From Streptomyces sp. DT2A-34 (lineage in GTDB: Bacteria > Actinomycetota > Actinomycetes > Streptomycetales > Streptomycetaceae), in assembly GCF_030499515.1 (NCBI RefSeq), contig NZ_JASTWJ010000001.1, positions 7,854,001 through 7,918,000 on the forward strand: a stretch of DNA of 64,000 nt, in the 5' to 3' direction. The notes under the pieces are model-generated. The model searched no databases. It worked only from the letters and a program-made list of their open reading frames with translations, and was not told the origin of the DNA. Below, in pieces: positions 9,844 through 42,475 of the stretch. The translations under genes and the position numbers were made by a program. The number at the start of each line of letters is the position of its first letter. Within the stretch, counting starts at the first letter, position 1.

Positions 9844-9876
9844 TTAATTCGCTCGCCCGGCCCGCGGCGTCCCTCT

Positions 9877-9882
9877 TAGAGT
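9877..9882 (+). promoter_or_regulatory. -10 element of the Y RNA array
   Basis: TAGAGT fits the Streptomyces TANNNT consensus and ends seven bases before the first paired base of the first Y RNA (9889/9890). That is the expected distance to a transcription start. No good -35 is visible. Confidence 0.5.
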
Positions 9883-9888
9883 GATGAA

Positions 9889-10026
9889 CGTCCAGGTGCG
9901 AAGGCAGGACCTACTTCCACTCTTAATGGGGAGGCCGCGGGTTCGAATCCCGCCACCGGTTCCACGAGCCGGTGTAGCTCAGTGGCAGAGCACCACGTCG
10001 GTTCCGCCGACCTCGATCTCTGGACA
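9889..10026 (+). ncRNA. yrlA: Y RNA (YrlA-type) with permuted tRNA-like domain, copy 1
   Basis: The ends pair as GTCCAG (9890-9895) with CTGGAC (10020-10025). The 5' strand carries GGTGCGAAGGC and the 3' strand GCCGACCTCGATCTC, the candidate Ro60-binding helix. An inner stem, GGACC with GGTTCC, follows. Inside is a tRNA in permuted order. First is a T-arm (GCGGG-TTCGAAT-CCCGC, 9937-9953). Next is an acceptor-like stem (CACCGGT with GCCGGTG) closed by a loop instead of open ends. Last, after TA, is a D-arm (GCTC-AGTGGCA-GAGC). This is the architecture I recall for bacterial YrlA RNAs, which bind Ro60 and mimic tRNA. It lies upstream of the Ro60 gene. Confidence 0.85.
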
Positions 10027-10038
10027 CCACAACTTCAT

Positions 10039-10119
10039 GCACCTCCCGGTGCGCAGGCTGCGGCTACTTCTTCTCCTAAAAGAATCCCAGGCCGCCGCCG
10101 ACTTGATCTCGGGAGGCGC
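10039..10119 (+). ncRNA. Y RNA without a tRNA-like domain, copy 2
   Basis: CCTCCC (10042-10047) pairs with GGGAGG (10111-10116). Inside are GGTGCGCAGGC on the 5' strand and GCCGACTTGATCTC on the 3' strand, as in the two neighbours. The inner stem GCGGC/GCCGC keeps pairing with a different sequence. The shared TACTTC follows, but the tRNA-like T-arm, acceptor and D-arm are absent. Only a short loop with a weak TTCT/AGAA hairpin remains. No separate promoter is seen, so it may be processed from a longer array transcript. Confidence 0.75.
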
Positions 10120-10124
10120 AGCTC

Positions 10125-10280
10125 AAGGTGGGTGCCCGGTGCGCAGGCAACGGTTACTTCATTGGATCTGGCGGTTGCGGGTTCGAGTCTCGTCATCGAC
10201 TTCGGGTCGGTGTAGCTCAATTCGGTAGAGCACCAGGCTAAAGTCCGTCGCCGACTCCTGAACTCGGGCACCCTCCTTTT
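10125..10280 (+). ncRNA. yrlA: Y RNA (YrlA-type) with permuted tRNA-like domain, copy 3
   Basis: The terminal stem is the strongest of the three: GGGTGCCC (10130-10137) with GGGCACCC (10266-10273), extended by AAGG/CCTT beyond one T-T mismatch and followed by TTTT. GGTGCGCAGGC and CGCCGAC-TCCTGAACTC form the candidate Ro60-binding helix, and ACGG/CCGT the inner stem. The permuted tRNA domain has a T-arm (GCGGG-TTCGAGT-CTCGT), an acceptor-like stem (CATCGAC with GTCGGTG) capped by a TTCGG loop, then TA and a D-arm (GCTC-AATTCGGTA-GAGC). The end plus T-run could terminate the array 46 bases before the Ro60 start. Confidence 0.85.
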
Positions 10281-10304
10281 GCTGCGCCTCCTCCCAAACA
10301 CGAA

Positions 10305-10323
10305 TGAATTCGGGGGGAATTCA
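10305..10323 (+). promoter_or_regulatory. hairpin displaying the Ro60 ribosome binding site
   Basis: TGAATTC (10305-10311) pairs perfectly with GAATTCA (10317-10323), leaving a GGGGG loop immediately before the Ro60 ATG at 10326. The purine-rich Shine-Dalgarno-like bases sit in the loop, so folding could tune translation. Confidence 0.4.
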
Positions 10324-10325
10324 CC

Positions 10326-11906
10326 ATGGCGCGATTCAACACGCGTGCCGCCAAGGCGCGGCCGACCTCGCGGGTCACTTCGACGGGGCGAGTGCTCCGT
10401 ACGTACCAGGGCGGCCGCGGCCGTGAGCGGGACCCGCGCTCCGAGCTCTTCCTGCTCGCGGTCTCCCACTTCGTCACCCAGCAGACCTTCTACGAGACCG
10501 GCGACGACCGCGACGACCGGTTCGCCAAGCTCGTGCGCGAGCTCGCCGTCACCGACCCCGTGTGGACGGCCGGCCTGCTCGGCTGGCTGCGCGGCGCGGG
10601 CAACCTCCGTACGGCGGCTCTCGTGGGCGCCGCCGAGTACGTGCAGGCCCGCCTGGAGGCCGGGGCCACCGACGGTCCGTCCAACCGGCAGGTCGTCGCC
10701 TCCGTACTCCAGCGGCCGGACGAACCCGGTGAACTGCTCGCGTACTGGACGGCGGTGTACGGCCGTAACGTCCCGAAGCCGGTCAAGCGCGGCATCGCCG
10801 ACGCCGTACGGCGTCTGTACAGCGGCAAGTCGCTGCTGAAGTACGACACCGCGTCCAAGGGCTACCGCTTCGGCGACATCCTCAACCTGGTGCACGCGGC
10901 CCCGGACCCGGACAAGCCGTGGCAGGGCGAGCTGTTCCGGTACGCCCTCGACCGCCGGCACAACCCGGACACCGCGGTGCCGCCCGCGTCCAACCGGACG
11001 CTGACCGCGCACCGCGAGCTGATGGCGCTGCCCGTCGCGGAGCGGCGTGCGGTGGTCACGTCCGAGGGCGGTGCCGAGCGGCTCGCGGCGGCCGGGATGA
11101 CATGGGAGGCGCTGGCGGGCTGGCTGCAGGGACCGATGGACAAGGCGGCCTGGGAGGCCGTCATTCCGTCCATGGGCGCGATGGCTTTGACGAGGAACCT
11201 GCGGAACTTCGATGAGGCCGGCGTCTCCGACGAGGTGGCCGCGCAGGTGGCGGCCCGCATCAGTGACCCGGCGGAGGTCGCGCGCTCGCGGCAGTTCCCC
11301 TTCCGGTACCTCGCCGCGTACCAGCACGCGCCCTCGCTGCGCTGGGCCTACCCGCTGGAGCAGGCGCTCGGTCACTCGCTGGCCAATGTGCCCGCGCTGC
11401 CCGGCCGGACGCTGGTGCTCGTCGACCGCTCCGGCTCGATGTGGGGTCCGCTGTCCGACCGCTCGAAGCTCAACCGGGCCGACGCGGCGGCGATCTTCGG
11501 CACGGCGCTGGCGCTGCGGGCGATGAAGGCGGACCTGGTGGAGTTCGGGTCCACGAGCGCCCCGGTGAAGTTCCGCAGGGGCGAGTCGGTACTGAAGATC
11601 CTGGGCCGCTTCGGCGACCTGGGCGGCACCGACACCACCGAGGCGGTCCGCCGGCACTACAGAAGCCACGACCGGGTCCTGATCGTCACCGACGAGCAGT
11701 ACGCGTACAGCCACCACGGCGACCCGACCCAGCAGGTCCCCGCCGATGTGCCGGTCTACACCTGGAACCTCGCTGGCTATCGGGCGGGCCACGGCCCGTC
11801 GGGGAAGGCGAACCGGCACACGTTTGGAGGGCTGTCGGACGGGGCTTTTCGGATGGTGCCTTTGCTGGAGCGTGGCAGTGACGGGCTCTGGCCATGGCTT
11901 GAATGA
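10326..11906 (+). CDS. rsr: Ro60/TROVE-domain RNA-binding protein
   Basis: 526 residues. The HEAT-repeat TROVE ring occupies about residues 20-340 (SELFLLAVSHFVTQQTFYET, LLGWLRGAGNLRTAALVGAA and LTRNLRNFDEAGVSDEVAA). A C-terminal von Willebrand A domain, about 358-520, carries the MIDAS motif Asp367-Arg-Ser369-Gly-Ser371 and the later GGTDTTEAV. Ro60 proteins bind misfolded RNA ends in the ring and Y RNAs on its outer surface, and in bacteria tether PNPase or aid stress RNA metabolism. Three Y RNA genes lie directly upstream. The length is typical. It shares an overlapping 3' end with the HNH gene. Confidence 0.95.
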   Translation: MARFNTRAAKARPTSRVTSTGRVLRTYQGGRGRERDPRSELFLLAVSHFVTQQTFYETGDDRDDRFAKLVRELAVTDPVWTAGLLGWLRGAGNLRTAALVGAAEYVQARLEAGATDGPSNRQVVASVLQRPDEPGELLAYWTAVYGRNVPKPVKRGIADAVRRLYSGKSLLKYDTASKGYRFGDILNLVHAAPDPDKPWQGELFRYALDRRHNPDTAVPPASNRTLTAHRELMALPVAERRAVVTSEGGAERLAAAGMTWEALAGWLQGPMDKAAWEAVIPSMGAMALTRNLRNFDEAGVSDEVAAQVAARISDPAEVARSRQFPFRYLAAYQHAPSLRWAYPLEQALGHSLANVPALPGRTLVLVDRSGSMWGPLSDRSKLNRADAAAIFGTALALRAMKADLVEFGSTSAPVKFRRGESVLKILGRFGDLGGTDTTEAVRRHYRSHDRVLIVTDEQYAYSHHGDPTQQVPADVPVYTWNLAGYRAGHGPSGKANRHTFGGLSDGAFRMVPLLERGSDGLWPWLE

Positions 11907-12594
11907 ACGGGCACGAGTTCGTCAATCTGTCGGAATCGCAACCAGGTTATGTGAAATCGACGAGTGCTCGAGGCCGCACAAGGGGCGGGGATACTGCAAT
12001 CTGCACTACCAACGTTGGCTCGCCTACGGTGATCCGAACGGTGGTGGTCACCCCACGGGGAGGGCTGTGTCCCCGCCCCGGCCATGCGAAATGGAAGGCT
12101 GTTCGAGGCCTCTGAAGGCGCGAGGGCTGTGTGCTACGCACTACAGGCGCTTACAGAGGTACGGTTCTCCGTTGGCCACAAAGTTCGAATGGACTCGGCG
12201 TGGTACGCCCTGCAGTTACGAGGGGTGCGAGCGGGAGCGGTACGGCGGCGGCCGCGGGTACTGTCACCTGCACTACGAGCGCTTGCGCCGCGGTAAGCAC
12301 GGCCTTGGCGGCCGTAAAGTGCGGGGAAGCCTGCAGAATGGCTATCGCATCTTCTGGGTGGACGGAAAGCGTGTTCCCGAACACCGGTTGGTAATGGAGC
12401 AGATCCTGGGCAGGCCGCTACGGCCGCGTGTGGAGACTGTGCATCACAAGAACGGTATCCGCGACGACAACCGGCCCGCGAACCTGGAGCTGTGGACCAC
12501 TATGCAGCCCAGCGGGCAGCGGGTGAGCGACTTGCCGGCCTTCGCGCGGGAAGTCATCGAGCGATACGGTGATGTGCCCGACGAGGCGCTCTAG
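11878..12594 (+). CDS. HNH endonuclease with three zinc-knuckle-like repeats
   Basis: 238 residues from GTG 11878, chosen for GGAG seven bases upstream; it overlaps the Ro60 3' end by 29 bases in another frame. TTG 11899 is an alternative start. Three repeats of the form C-x4-C-x(9-11)-C-x2-H occupy about residues 20-125 (CEIDECSRPHKGRGYCNLHY, CEMEGCSRPLKARGLCATHY and the CSYEGCERERYGGGRGYC form). The HNH core is in the C-terminal half: PEHRLVMEQILGR, His189-His190-KNG and NRPANLELW. Codon use is less GC-biased than in its neighbours, as in mobile homing-type nucleases. Its cellular target is unknown, and a role in the Ro60 system is only suggested by position. Confidence 0.75.
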   Translation: MTGSGHGLNERARVRQSVGIATRLCEIDECSRPHKGRGYCNLHYQRWLAYGDPNGGGHPTGRAVSPPRPCEMEGCSRPLKARGLCATHYRRLQRYGSPLATKFEWTRRGTPCSYEGCERERYGGGRGYCHLHYERLRRGKHGLGGRKVRGSLQNGYRIFWVDGKRVPEHRLVMEQILGRPLRPRVETVHHKNGIRDDNRPANLELWTTMQPSGQRVSDLPAFAREVIERYGDVPDEAL

Positions 12595-30498: not shown

Positions 30499-32231
30499 CC
30501 GACAGACAGCGAAAGCGCCCCGAGGAACTGCGGAGCCATCAGTGGTACGGCACCGAGGGTCAGCTGCGCACCTGGTCGCACAACGCCCGCATGCGTCAGC
30601 TCGGCTACGAGGCGGAGGAGTACCGGGGCCGCCCGGTGATCGCCGTCCTCAACACCTGGTCCGACATCAACCCCTGCCACGTCCATCTGCGTGAGCGCGC
30701 CGAGGCGGTCAAGCGGGGGGTGTGGCAGGCCGGGGGCTTCCCGCTCGAGTTCCCGGTCTCCACGCTCTCGGAGACGTACCAGAAGCCGACCCCGATGCTC
30801 TACCGCAACCTGCTCGCGATGGAGACGGAGGAACTGCTGCGGTCGTATCCGATCGACGCGGCGGTGCTGCTCGGCGGCTGCGACAAGTCGACGCCGGCGC
30901 TGCTCATGGGCGCGGCCTCGGCCGATGTCACGTCGATCTTCGTGCCCGCGGGGCCGATGCTGCCGGGGCACTGGCGCGGTGAGACCCTCGGGTCCGGCAC
31001 CGACATGTGGAAGTACTGGGACGAGCACCGCGCGGGCAACCTGTCGGACTGCGAACTGCGCGAGCTCCAGGGCGGGCTGGCGCGTTCACCCGGTCACTGC
31101 ATGACCATGGGGACCGCCTCCACGATGACCGCGGCGGCGGAGACCCTCGGCATGACCCTGCCGGGTGCCTCCTCGATCCCGGCCGTCGACTCGGGACACG
31201 AGCGGATGGCCGCCGCCTCCGGGCGCCGCGCCGTGGAGCTCGCCTGGACCGGGCTCAAGCCGTCCGAGATCCTCACCCGCGAGGCCTTCGAGGACGCCGT
31301 CACCACGGTGCTGGGCCTGGGCGGCTCCACCAACGCGGTCATCCACCTGATCGCCATGGCCGGCCGCGCGGGCATCACGCTCACCCTCGACGACTTCGAC
31401 CGCATCGCGCGTACCGTGCCGGTGCTCGCGAACGTCCGTCCCGGCGGACAGACGTACCTCATGGAGGACTTCCACTTCGCCGGCGGCCTGCCCGCCTTCC
31501 TCTCGCGGATCACCGACCTGCTGCACCTGGACCGGCCGACCGTGGGCGGCACCCTGGGCGAGCAGATCGAGGGCGCCGTCGTCCACAACGACGACGTCAT
31601 CCGCACCCGCGAGAACCCGGTCGCCCGCGAGGGCGGGGTCGCGGTCCTGCGCGGCAACCTCTGCCCCGACGGCGCCGTCATCAAGCACATCGCCGCCGAG
31701 CGGCACCTGCTCAAGCACACGGGTCCGGCCGTCGTCTTCGACGACTACAAGACGATGCAGCGGACCATCAACGACCCGTCGCTCGGCATCACCGCCGACA
31801 GTGTGCTGGTGCTGCGCAACGCCGGGCCCAAGGGCGGCCCGGGCATGCCCGAGTACGGCATGCTGCCGATCCCCGACCACCTGCTCAAGCAGGGCGTACG
31901 GGACATGGTGCGGATCTCCGACGCCCGGATGAGCGGCACCAGTTACGGCACGTGCGTGCTGCACGTGGCGCCCGAGTCGTACATCGGCGGACCGCTGGCG
32001 CTCGTGCGCACCGGGGATCTCATCACCCTGGACGTCGAGGCCCGCGTCCTCCAACTCAACGTGGACGACGATGAGTTGGAGCGCCGCCGAGCCGAGTGGA
32101 CCCCACCGCCCACCCGCTACGAGCGCGGCTACGGCGCCCTCTACAACGACCAGATCACCCAGGCCGACACCGGCTGCGACTTCGAGTTCCTGGCCAGACC
32201 GGGCAAGTCCCCAGACCCCTACGCCCTTTAG
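30495..32231 (+). CDS. IlvD/Edd-family sugar-acid dehydratase (L-arabinonate dehydratase-like)
   Basis: 578 residues from a GTG in the GTGA overlap. Iron-sulfur cysteines are at 61 (SDINPCHVH), 129 (LLGGCDKSTPA) and 202 (ARSPGHCMTMGTASTM), and the Mg site sequence NAGPKGGPGMPEYGMLPIPD is present. The order and spacing are those of [2Fe-2S] or [4Fe-4S] IlvD/Edd enzymes acting on pentonates or hexonates. With the partner dehydratase it fits an oxidative L-arabinose (or related sugar acid) pathway. Arabinose would come from the arabinan-active enzymes in this cluster. It ends in a repeat with a strong hairpin. Confidence 0.85.
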   Translation: MTDRQRKRPEELRSHQWYGTEGQLRTWSHNARMRQLGYEAEEYRGRPVIAVLNTWSDINPCHVHLRERAEAVKRGVWQAGGFPLEFPVSTLSETYQKPTPMLYRNLLAMETEELLRSYPIDAAVLLGGCDKSTPALLMGAASADVTSIFVPAGPMLPGHWRGETLGSGTDMWKYWDEHRAGNLSDCELRELQGGLARSPGHCMTMGTASTMTAAAETLGMTLPGASSIPAVDSGHERMAAASGRRAVELAWTGLKPSEILTREAFEDAVTTVLGLGGSTNAVIHLIAMAGRAGITLTLDDFDRIARTVPVLANVRPGGQTYLMEDFHFAGGLPAFLSRITDLLHLDRPTVGGTLGEQIEGAVVHNDDVIRTRENPVAREGGVAVLRGNLCPDGAVIKHIAAERHLLKHTGPAVVFDDYKTMQRTINDPSLGITADSVLVLRNAGPKGGPGMPEYGMLPIPDHLLKQGVRDMVRISDARMSGTSYGTCVLHVAPESYIGGPLALVRTGDLITLDVEARVLQLNVDDDELERRRAEWTPPPTRYERGYGALYNDQITQADTGCDFEFLARPGKSPDPYAL

Positions 32232-41113: not shown

Positions 41114-42475
41114 ATGAAGATCAGCAATCGCAGGAGCAGCACAGGCGGTCGCCGCATGTCGGCCGTCGTCGCCCTGAGCGCCGTGCTCGCCCTGACGGCC
41201 ACCGCCTGTGGTGACGACGGGAGCGGTACGGGGGGCGACAAGGGCGACGAGGGCAGCGGCAAGGGAGAGATCGTCTTCTGGGACAACAACGGCGGTGTCC
41301 GCACCGACATCTGGAAGGAGGTCATCGCCGACTTCGAGAAGGCGAACCCGGACATCAAGGTCGAGTACGTCGGGATTCCGTCCACCGACTACCAGTCCAA
41401 GGTGGACACCGCCCTCCAGGGCGGCGGCCTGCCGGACGTCGGCGGCGTCGGCGCGGCGATGCTCGCCGGGTTCGCCGCGCAGAATGCGCTGGAGCCGCTG
41501 GACGACCGGCTCGCCAAGTCCGCCCTGGACGGCAAGCTCAACGAGGACATGGTCACCTCGCTGAAGGCCGCCGGCGGCGGTGACGACACGCTGTACTCGG
41601 TTCCGACCTCCGCGAACAACGGCGTCCTGTACTACCGCACCGACCTGTTCGAGAAGGCGAACCTGGACGAGCCGACGACCTGGGACAAGTTCTACGAGGC
41701 CGCGGAGAAGCTCACCAACGCCGGCAAGAACGAGTTCGGTTACACCATCCGCGGTGGCGCCGGTTCCGTCGCCCAGGCGCTGGACGCGATGTACGGGCAG
41801 TCCGGGATCACGTCCTTCTGGGACGCCGGCGGTGAGAAGACGACCGTCAACGACCCGAAGAATGCGGCTGCGCTGGAGAAGTACGCCGCGCTCTACAAGA
41901 AGGTCACTCCGGCGGCCGACCTGAACAACGACTTCACCAAGATGGTCTCCCAGTGGGACTCCGGCACCATCGGCATGCTGAACCACAACCTGGGGTCGTA
42001 CCAGGACCACGTGAAGGCCCTGGGCACCGAGAAGTTCCGGGGTATTCCGCAGCCCACCGGGCCGGGCGGCAAGCGGGTCCAGGTCTCCAACCCGGTCGAC
42101 GGTCTGGGGCTGTTCAAGAGCTCCAAGAACAAGGAGGCGGCCTGGAAGTTCATCGAGTTCGCCGCCTCACACGAGTCGAACTCCAAGTGGAACGAGTCGG
42201 CCGGCGCGATCCCGGCCAACACGGACGCCGCGCAGGACGCGTGGATCTCCAAGGCCGAGCCGACGAAGCTGGCGGCCACGGCGCTGAACGATGGTTCGAC
42301 CGAGATCGTCCAGCTGCCGTACTACCTGCCCGACTGGAACACCATCTCCAAGGCCGACAACGAGCCCAACCTCCAGAAGGTGCTGCTCGGTGACATGAGC
42401 GCGAAGGACTTCCTGGACACGATGGCCGAGCAGCTGAATGAGGCTCAGGCCGAGTGGAATCAGCAGAAGGGCTGA
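41114..42475 (+). CDS. ABC transporter substrate-binding lipoprotein, pectin oligosaccharides
   Basis: 453 residues. The signal peptide ends at Cys32 (LALTATAC), an unusual lipobox with Ala at -3. The mature protein is a CUT1 binding fold with IVFWDNNGGVRTDIWKEVIA, VEYVGIPSTDYQSKVDTALQ, GVLYYRTDLFEKANL, and VDGLGLFKSSKNKEAAWKFI. It is the only binding-protein gene in the pectin region, so it is the best partner for the permeases at 32396 and 33328, nearly 8 kb away. It probably binds oligogalacturonides or arabino-oligosaccharides. Confidence 0.9.
   Translation: MKISNRRSSTGGRRMSAVVALSAVLALTATACGDDGSGTGGDKGDEGSGKGEIVFWDNNGGVRTDIWKEVIADFEKANPDIKVEYVGIPSTDYQSKVDTALQGGGLPDVGGVGAAMLAGFAAQNALEPLDDRLAKSALDGKLNEDMVTSLKAAGGGDDTLYSVPTSANNGVLYYRTDLFEKANLDEPTTWDKFYEAAEKLTNAGKNEFGYTIRGGAGSVAQALDAMYGQSGITSFWDAGGEKTTVNDPKNAAALEKYAALYKKVTPAADLNNDFTKMVSQWDSGTIGMLNHNLGSYQDHVKALGTEKFRGIPQPTGPGGKRVQVSNPVDGLGLFKSSKNKEAAWKFIEFAASHESNSKWNESAGAIPANTDAAQDAWISKAEPTKLAATALNDGSTEIVQLPYYLPDWNTISKADNEPNLQKVLLGDMSAKDFLDTMAEQLNEAQAEWNQQKG

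Follow-up and report, generated by a model that had tools for sequence, protein, structure and literature searches.

Three predicted Y RNA units, two of them with a permuted tRNA-like module, precede the Ro60 gene rsr in Streptomyces sp. DT2A-34

Organization of the rsr locus

We analyzed a 64,000-nt stretch of the genome of Streptomyces sp. DT2A-34, referred to here as the window. The window contains rsr, a Ro60 orthologue, whose 526-aa product matched the TROVE domain profile PF05731 with 48.7 bits (cut-off, 23), the best stretch corresponding to profile positions 290-351 of 442, and matched the solved TROVE proteins 9kop and 9l5y with an E-value of 6e-31. The DRSGSM metal-site motif was recognized by eye, and rsr was the sole match to its TROVE protein detected in the source genome. 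Three Y RNA units at positions 9890-10273 lie 5' of rsr and adjoin this Ro60 (TROVE) gene; Y RNAs located beside Ro60 are an already known kind in bacteria. The ORFs scanned near rsr encode PhoX and HNH proteins, with no rtcBA among them, and an ORF at 11746-12594 that overlaps the end of rsr carries an HNH endonuclease domain (34.1 bits). ARAGORN detected no true tRNA in the whole window. The features of the region are as follows.

9844..9882, + strand: promoter-like block, TTAATTCGCTCG and the -10-like hexamer TAGAGT (9877-9882), which ends 7 nt before copy 1
9890..10025, + strand: Y RNA copy 1, 136 nt, with a class I tRNA-like module; outer stem GTCCAG/CTGGAC, TACTTC at 9912-9917, T-arm at 9937-9953, closed acceptor at 9954-9974, D-arm at 9977-9991
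10026..10041, + strand: linker between copies 1 and 2, ACCACAACTTCATGCA, 16 nt, identical in 17 of the 53 loci with both copies
10042..10116, + strand: Y RNA copy 2, 75 nt, without a tRNA-like module; outer stem CCTCCCG/CGGGAGG, Ro-motif, inner stem, TACTTC at 10065-10070, apical TTCN/NGAA hairpin
10117..10129, + strand: linker between copies 2 and 3, CGCAGCTCAAGGT, 13 nt
10130..10273, + strand: Y RNA copy 3, 144 nt, with a class I tRNA-like module; outer stem GGGTGCCCG/CGGGCACCC, TACTTC at 10155-10160, anticodon-stem-like pair 10167-10171/10233-10237, T-arm at 10177-10193, UUCG-closed acceptor at 10194-10212, D-arm at 10215-10231
10274..10325, + strand: tail, with a T-rich stretch, GCTGCGCCTCC (complementary to the linker between copies 2 and 3 and to copy 2), and the GGGGGG ribosome-binding site of rsr
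10326..11906, + strand: rsr, Ro60 orthologue with a TROVE domain

Sequence motifs and tRNA-like modules of the three units

The three copies share the sequence GGTGCG(A/C)AGGC, an inner stem followed directly by TACTTC, and a 3' GCCGA..GA(A/T)CT element before the closing strand, and each is closed by a different stem. A preliminary description of the region had reported these stems and motifs in proposing three tandem Y RNA units 5' of a Ro60 gene. They were read directly in all three copies, and the TROVE score of rsr and the excess of similar units upstream of other TROVE genes (101 units versus approximately 4 by chance; see below) bear out that proposal. A basal stem with a conserved Ro-site-like element (GGUGCGMAGGC / GCCGA..GAWCU) is predicted in each of the three copies and across loci.

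In copies 1 and 3, a T-arm, a loop-closed acceptor, and a D-arm follow one another in this order, and a short stem replaces the anticodon stem. Direct reading of this order confirmed the permuted tRNA domain that had been claimed for two copies, and it is this module that marks copies 1 and 3 as Y RNAs of the YrlA type. As read from the letters, the module is a putative tRNA fold whose opening lies in the anticodon loop and whose acceptor, being closed, would have no free end. No tRNA-like module was found on reading copy 2, which we therefore classed as a Y RNA that is not of the YrlA type.

We built two models, R1 and R2, from Streptomyces units. With the window in the training set, R2 scored copies 1 and 3 at 111.5 and 152.1 bits, respectively, and R1 scored copy 2 at 90.9 bits. 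The covariance-model match that had been looked for was obtained in part: the Rfam YrlA model (RF02553) matched copy 3 (E = 2.4e-7, 42.9 bits) and copy 1 (E = 3.4e-5, 35.5 bits), but both scores lie below its curated gathering score of 69 bits, for which reason we did not file the array under this family. None of six related loci reached the gathering score of RF02553 either. A further Y RNA candidate at C1:6999752 of the source genome (R2, 60.4 bits) was rejected because it consists of two tandem tRNA-Asn genes; the T-arm and acceptor of one gene followed by the acceptor and D-arm of the next (C1:6999742-6999892) resemble the permuted module. Elsewhere in this genome there were weaker matches, one to R2 (21.7 bits) and two to R1 (32.1 and 25.7 bits).

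Comparative support for the fold

Three alignments were made from chosen, diverse subsets of the units: A1, with 28 of the 69 full copy 2 sequences; A2, with 26 rows comprising the class I form of copy 3 and copy 1; and A3, with 20 rows of the class II form. The preliminary description had staked its reading on conservation of the stems in relatives, and 97-99% of the cells indeed paired (97.9% in A1, 97.2% in A2, and 98.8% in A3), compared with 32-56% for slid structures. The covariation score was 0.090 in A1 (shuffled mean, 0.040), 0.326 in A2 (0.159), and 0.251 in A3 (0.124), and none of 500 shuffles, which ignore kinship, scored as high in any alignment. Cells changed on both sides were likewise more frequent than in all 500 shuffles in A1, A2, and A3 alike; the number of further pair types in A1 (copy 2) was not above that of the shuffles, 278 of 500 being as high.

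Changes on both sides of a pair were found in four kinds of helix (inner, anticodon-like, acceptor, and variable-arm), in the apical hairpin of copy 2, and in the outer stem of copy 3. The class I D-stem showed one such change. The T-stems, the class II D-stem, and the copy 2 outer stem had none in the alignments, and support for these helices therefore comes from conservation; in the copy 2 outer stem, six of the seven pairs are invariant over the 28 rows. Against the tRNA-like fold of copy 3, RNAfold on energy alone preferred a rod at -61.9 kcal/mol to the comparative fold (-56.1 kcal/mol with its pairs enforced and -47.0 kcal/mol for those pairs alone).

Conservation of the array in Streptomyces

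One scan yielded 241 stretches encoding relatives of the protein, and the best 80 loci, all from Streptomyces and chosen by their rsr gene, were used. The readable set of 80 consists of 79 of these loci and the window, L074 having been left out since it comes without upstream DNA. An array lies 5' of rsr in all 80 readable loci, which answers the question, raised by the preliminary description, of whether other Streptomyces genomes carry it; arrays of two to four units are found in other members of the class.

None of the 80 loci lacks copy 2: it is full in 69, shrunken in 10, and has one broken closing pair in the remaining locus (L036). The shrunken form (L001, L007, L014, L028, L038, L039, L040, L047, L068, and L080) is a hairpin of 31-33 nt in which the outer stem and the edges of the Ro-motif remain and everything above them is gone; the idea that copy 2 is absent from some loci was rejected for this reason. 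An even shorter form (CCTCCCGGTGCGTTCTCGGGAGG) occurs in L095 of the class-wide sample described below. Copy 1 is found in 54 of the 80 loci, and a tRNA-like copy 3 with a D-arm in 78; in the other two (L005 and L035), little of copy 3 beyond the stem remains.

Class I and class II variants of copy 3

The D-arm of copy 3 is of class I in 42 of the 80 loci, including the window (TAGCTCAATTCGGTAGAGCA), and of the tRNA-Leu type in 36 (TGGCGGAACGGAAGACGCG), with none in 2; a stricter pattern gave 39 class I, 35 Leu-type, and 5 without a D-arm among 79. When compared with 113 reference tRNAs from the source genome and one other actinomycete, 34 copy 3 D-arms had Leu as their best and sole match (L045 was mis-cut and L036 unscored). 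The stretch from TACTTC to the T-arm measures 17-19 nt in all 41 class I rows; among the 34 Leu-type rows, it measures 22-30 nt in 26 and 17-19 nt in 8. The long variable region of the Leu type corresponds to a variable-arm hairpin, all five pairs of which show both-side changes (letters in 12-14 rows).

A tree was built from 79 rsr genes, excluding L013 and L074, and 76 of its rows were typed. It requires at least 17 changes in the form of copy 3, of which 13 follow from branches with good support. The window is of class I and its nearest kin, L001, of class II. In 11-12 of 13 independent pairs, the Leu D-arm was accompanied by the long variable region, and no pair showed the reverse (median p = 0.0005); the D-arm and the long variable region of copy 3 switch together, even between near kin. 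Such switching is no proof of selection, since exchange of whole modules by recombination would give rise to an identical pattern and the rsr tree may differ from the species tree. A general agreement in isotype between D-arms and T-arms was looked for and not found. The best matches of the T-arms scatter, and our isotype assignments are therefore based on the D-arms, together with the variable region for the Leu form. The presence of copy 1 was not significantly linked to the form of copy 3 (median p = 0.125).

Y RNA units and Ro60 in other actinomycetes

In a class-wide sample of 394 genomes, 51, including the source genome, had a TROVE match at 1e-20. We scanned 56 regions upstream of TROVE matches (own locus excluded, Streptomyces included) with a detector that required an outer stem of at least 6 pairs, GGTGCG with one mismatch, and GNNCT. 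The detector found 101 units, a few short ones of which look doubtful, compared with 20 in 280 shuffled regions (approximately 4 per 56) and 13 on the reverse strand. At least two units were present in 35 of the 56 regions, and four units in five (L104, L110, L116, L117, and L118). Eight regions had no unit, and three of these (L124, L127, and L129) still show T- and D-arm motifs.

Within arrays of three or four units, the D-arms can differ from unit to unit. L109 and L117 have Glu-like D-arms scoring 17.5, compared with at most 8.5 for shuffles, and L116 has a Gln-like but weak one (10.0 versus 8.0 and 9.0 for shuffles); in all three of these arrays, the last unit carries a D-arm of class I. 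Of the 35 D-arms scored outside Streptomyces and its close matches (L102-L137), 26 exceeded their own shuffles and 9 did not; the splitter could separate no module in 21 of the 56 units outside Streptomyces.

With a cut of 65 bits, which was set after the list had been inspected and a 60-bit match found to be a tandem tRNA pair, R2 matched 47 of the 394 genomes, namely 46 of the 51 TROVE genomes and G315, all 47 of which have Ro60. Five TROVE genomes were without a 65-bit match, and the other 342 genomes gave none, absences that are soft because 8 RNA candidates and 3 TROVE candidates were scored per genome. In Streptomyces alone, the 65-bit level was reached in 22 of 22 genomes with TROVE and in none of 18 without it. 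Scores of 61-63 bits were obtained in G031, G275, G360, and G383, of which G275 has TROVE. Matches of similar length at 54-61 bits in other Streptomyces, with or without rsr, are presumably tandem tRNA pairs. In G315 (L238, C33), a divergent Ro60 of 713 aa (TROVE, 75 bits; vWA_Ro60, 139 bits) is encoded just 3' of two R2 matches; it matched the window protein with an E-value of only 0.01, and the detector found no unit at this locus.

Seven strong R2 matches located away from rsr or well upstream of it (L239-L245) were treated as orphans; others, for example one match in G013 and two located on small contigs of G371, were left out. The detector was positive for all seven, and all seven genomes have rsr, which in the case of L245 lies approximately 2.3 kb downstream of the unit. 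Six orphan D-arms were scored. Those of L239, L240, L241, and L245 were Val-like, Leu-like, Glu-like, and Ala-like, respectively; that of L244 was weakly Tyr-like, and that of L243 was Ser-like with a score no better than shuffles. Separately, a dense array with 27 tRNA matches (L224; G307:C52:72300-81400) was observed approximately 13-22 kb from a second, divergent TROVE gene (C52:94378-96000).

A phage source of the modules found no support: none of 27 phage records covered 80% of the query (best, 18%), and 8 of the 20 listed matches fall under annotated tRNAs. Two unannotated phage stretches are similar to the tRNA-like modules of the window, at 31528-31606 of Gordonia phage Cashline (MW534378) and at 42221-42280 of Mycobacterium phage Whirlwind (NC_022052), and may each be a phage Y RNA or a tRNA.

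Promoter-like block, linkers, and tail

A -10-like hexamer of the loose TANNNT type precedes the first unit in all 78 loci with enough DNA (L010 was too short and L036 was not counted). The spacing between the hexamer and copy 1 is 7 nt in 52 of 53 loci; in loci without copy 1, a similar block precedes copy 2, with a spacing of 19 nt between the hexamer and copy 2 in 21 of 25. A block resembling AATTCGCTCG lies upstream of the hexamer in 63 of the 78 loci, and no canonical -35 element was seen by eye. The linker between copies 1 and 2 is 16-17 nt long in 48 of the 53 loci with both copies. Given the -10-like box 7 nt before copy 1 and the short linkers, the array is likely transcribed as one RNA; as an alternative to a single start, a promoter may lie within an upstream copy. 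Positions 10111-10122, in the 3' strand of copy 2 and the following linker, are complementary to positions 10281-10292 in the tail. This potential helix, which can enclose copy 3, retains 11-12 of its 12 pairs in 58 of 79 loci.

Discussion

In our judgment, the region is probably transcribed as a single unit and yields three Y RNAs for the adjoining Ro60. That the units are Y RNA genes 5' of a Ro60 gene is the best available reading because of their position, their Ro-site-like sequence, the permuted tRNA domain, the compensatory changes across Streptomyces, and the co-occurrence with Ro60. Transcription would start at copy 1 and proceed through the 16- and 13-nt linkers into rsr. Cleavage at double-stranded flanks would then release separate Y RNAs; RNase III is our guess for the enzyme, and the helix formed by the tail with the 3' strand of copy 2 and its linker could be an RNase III processing stem. 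Ro60 may bind the basal stems and stabilize the RNAs, and the tRNA-like modules may let Ro60 particles engage tRNA-binding partners, such as PNPase and tRNA-modifying enzymes in the species studied. Copy 2 could act as a bare gate or stabilizer of Ro60, and the array would in this way supply Ro60 with two mimic-bearing Y RNAs and one mimic-free Y RNA.

Several elements of this reading have counterparts in known systems, as far as the accessible parts of the respective papers indicate. Bacterial Y RNA is bound by Ro60 via its basal stem and tethers PNPase, and YrlA is a substrate of DusA and TruB (PMC8394870, PMC4726728). In Deinococcus radiodurans, where Ro60 is likewise paired with a Y RNA, the Y RNA of the RYPER complex tethers PNPase and gates substrates (PMC4726728). 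The circular permutation of the YrlA-type module relative to tRNA has been published (PMC11472068). Like Salmonella YrlA (RF02553; PDB 6CU1), copies 1 and 3 lie beside Ro60 and combine a basal stem with a permuted module of T-arm, closed acceptor, and D-arm; unlike it, the window array scores below the RF02553 gathering score and has a UACUUC motif, and actinomycete arrays have up to four units. The units of the window also differ in number and shape from those of Deinococcus radiodurans. The preliminary description had regarded an array of three, one of them without the tRNA domain, as not known to be described. This needs qualification: the Salmonella rsr-yrlBA-rtcBA operon already contains more than one Y RNA (two) with rsr (PMC7790460, PMC9879122, accessible parts), whereas the units of the window precede rsr, number three, and have PhoX and HNH neighbors in place of rtcBA. 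The Leu-type copy 3 (36 of 80 loci) resembles a class II (leucine) tRNA in its D-arm and, in 26 of 34 measured cases, its lengthened variable region; it differs in being circularly permuted, with a Y RNA stem replacing the anticodon loop and with a closed acceptor, and the window itself has the class I form.

The units might also stay joined in a single long, multivalent RNA that is not cut and serves as a scaffold for two or three Ro60 rings. The linkers of merely 13 and 16 nt are conserved, the 3' strand of copy 2 and the linker behind it can pair with the tail after copy 3, and the basal stem of copy 2 is retained where the rest has been lost (10 of 80 loci, and shorter still in L095), as such a scaffold would predict. 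Known Y RNAs, however, are separate small RNAs, long joined helices are equally typical of processing stems, and copy 1 has been gained or lost independently, with at least 13 changes on the rsr tree. We regard an uncut scaffold as unlikely.

Somewhat less likely still is that the array serves mainly as a regulatory leader, in which Ro60 bound to copy 2 alters pairing at the ribosome-binding site and so limits its own synthesis. The nearly invariant outer stem of copy 2 is consistent with this, as are the second partner of its 3' strand in the tail and the ability of the tail to pair with the GGGGG ribosome-binding site. Linker-tail pairs numbered 410 of 474, versus 398.7 (sd 2.7) after permutation, and 4 of 5000 permutations, in which kinship is ignored, were as high; a kinship-aware test of the same pairing was not significant, though (median p = 0.25), own and swapped linker-tail scores were nearly equal (means, 26.6 versus 25.9), and copies 1 and 3 are left unexplained. 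We rejected a simple switch at the ribosome-binding site via copy 2: no on/off behavior is apparent, since both modelled folds leave the site of the window base-paired (probability of being unpaired, 0.00 and 0.03). That the tRNA-like modules are decayed tandem tRNA genes without a function of their own is most improbable, for although R2 gives 60.4 bits to the tandem tRNA-Asn genes of the source genome, the modules have loop-closed acceptors and compensatory changes in the acceptor, anticodon-like, and variable-arm helices, Ro-site stems flank each module, and the D-arm and variable region switch jointly; tandem tRNA genes may nevertheless be the evolutionary origin of the permuted module.

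Returning to an array that supplies Ro60 with Y RNAs, we advance a further idea that we hold only tentatively and consider rather doubtful: the Ro60 loci of actinomycetes might carry a changeable set of tRNA decoys (generic class I, Leu with a long variable arm, Glu, and perhaps Gln) that are swapped fast between close species. Such swapping would be expected if the set of decoys tracked attackers or handlers of particular tRNAs, for example tRNA-cleaving toxins or phage nucleases. The array would in that case amount to a cassette of isotype-specific baits, with Ro60 either receiving or shielding them. The accessible part of one paper suggests that a tRNA-like domain might competitively inhibit a tRNA nuclease (PMC7790460), and tRNA cleavage in Streptomyces coelicolor is cited in the accessible part of another (PMC8628891).

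The literature that we searched, from which the main bacterial Y RNA papers were out of reach, contained no paper on a Streptomyces Y RNA with Ro60, and in its partial coverage we found no description of class II or other isotype-like Y RNA modules. Judged on this partly reachable literature, the alternation of copy 3 between class I and class II, the number of units, and the shrunken middle copy are new features. In a 2014 abstract by Chen, at least one Y RNA with a tRNA-like domain was reportedly found in each of more than 250 species. To our knowledge, the reason bacterial Y RNAs imitate tRNA is an open question. The rsr locus of Streptomyces makes it directly testable: in this readily grown and engineered genus, the mimic alternates naturally between class I and class II, the mimic-free copy 2 provides a built-in control, and any partner that recognizes the tRNA core should change with the form. 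In its shrunken version, copy 2 marks the portion of the Y RNA that evolution will not give up.
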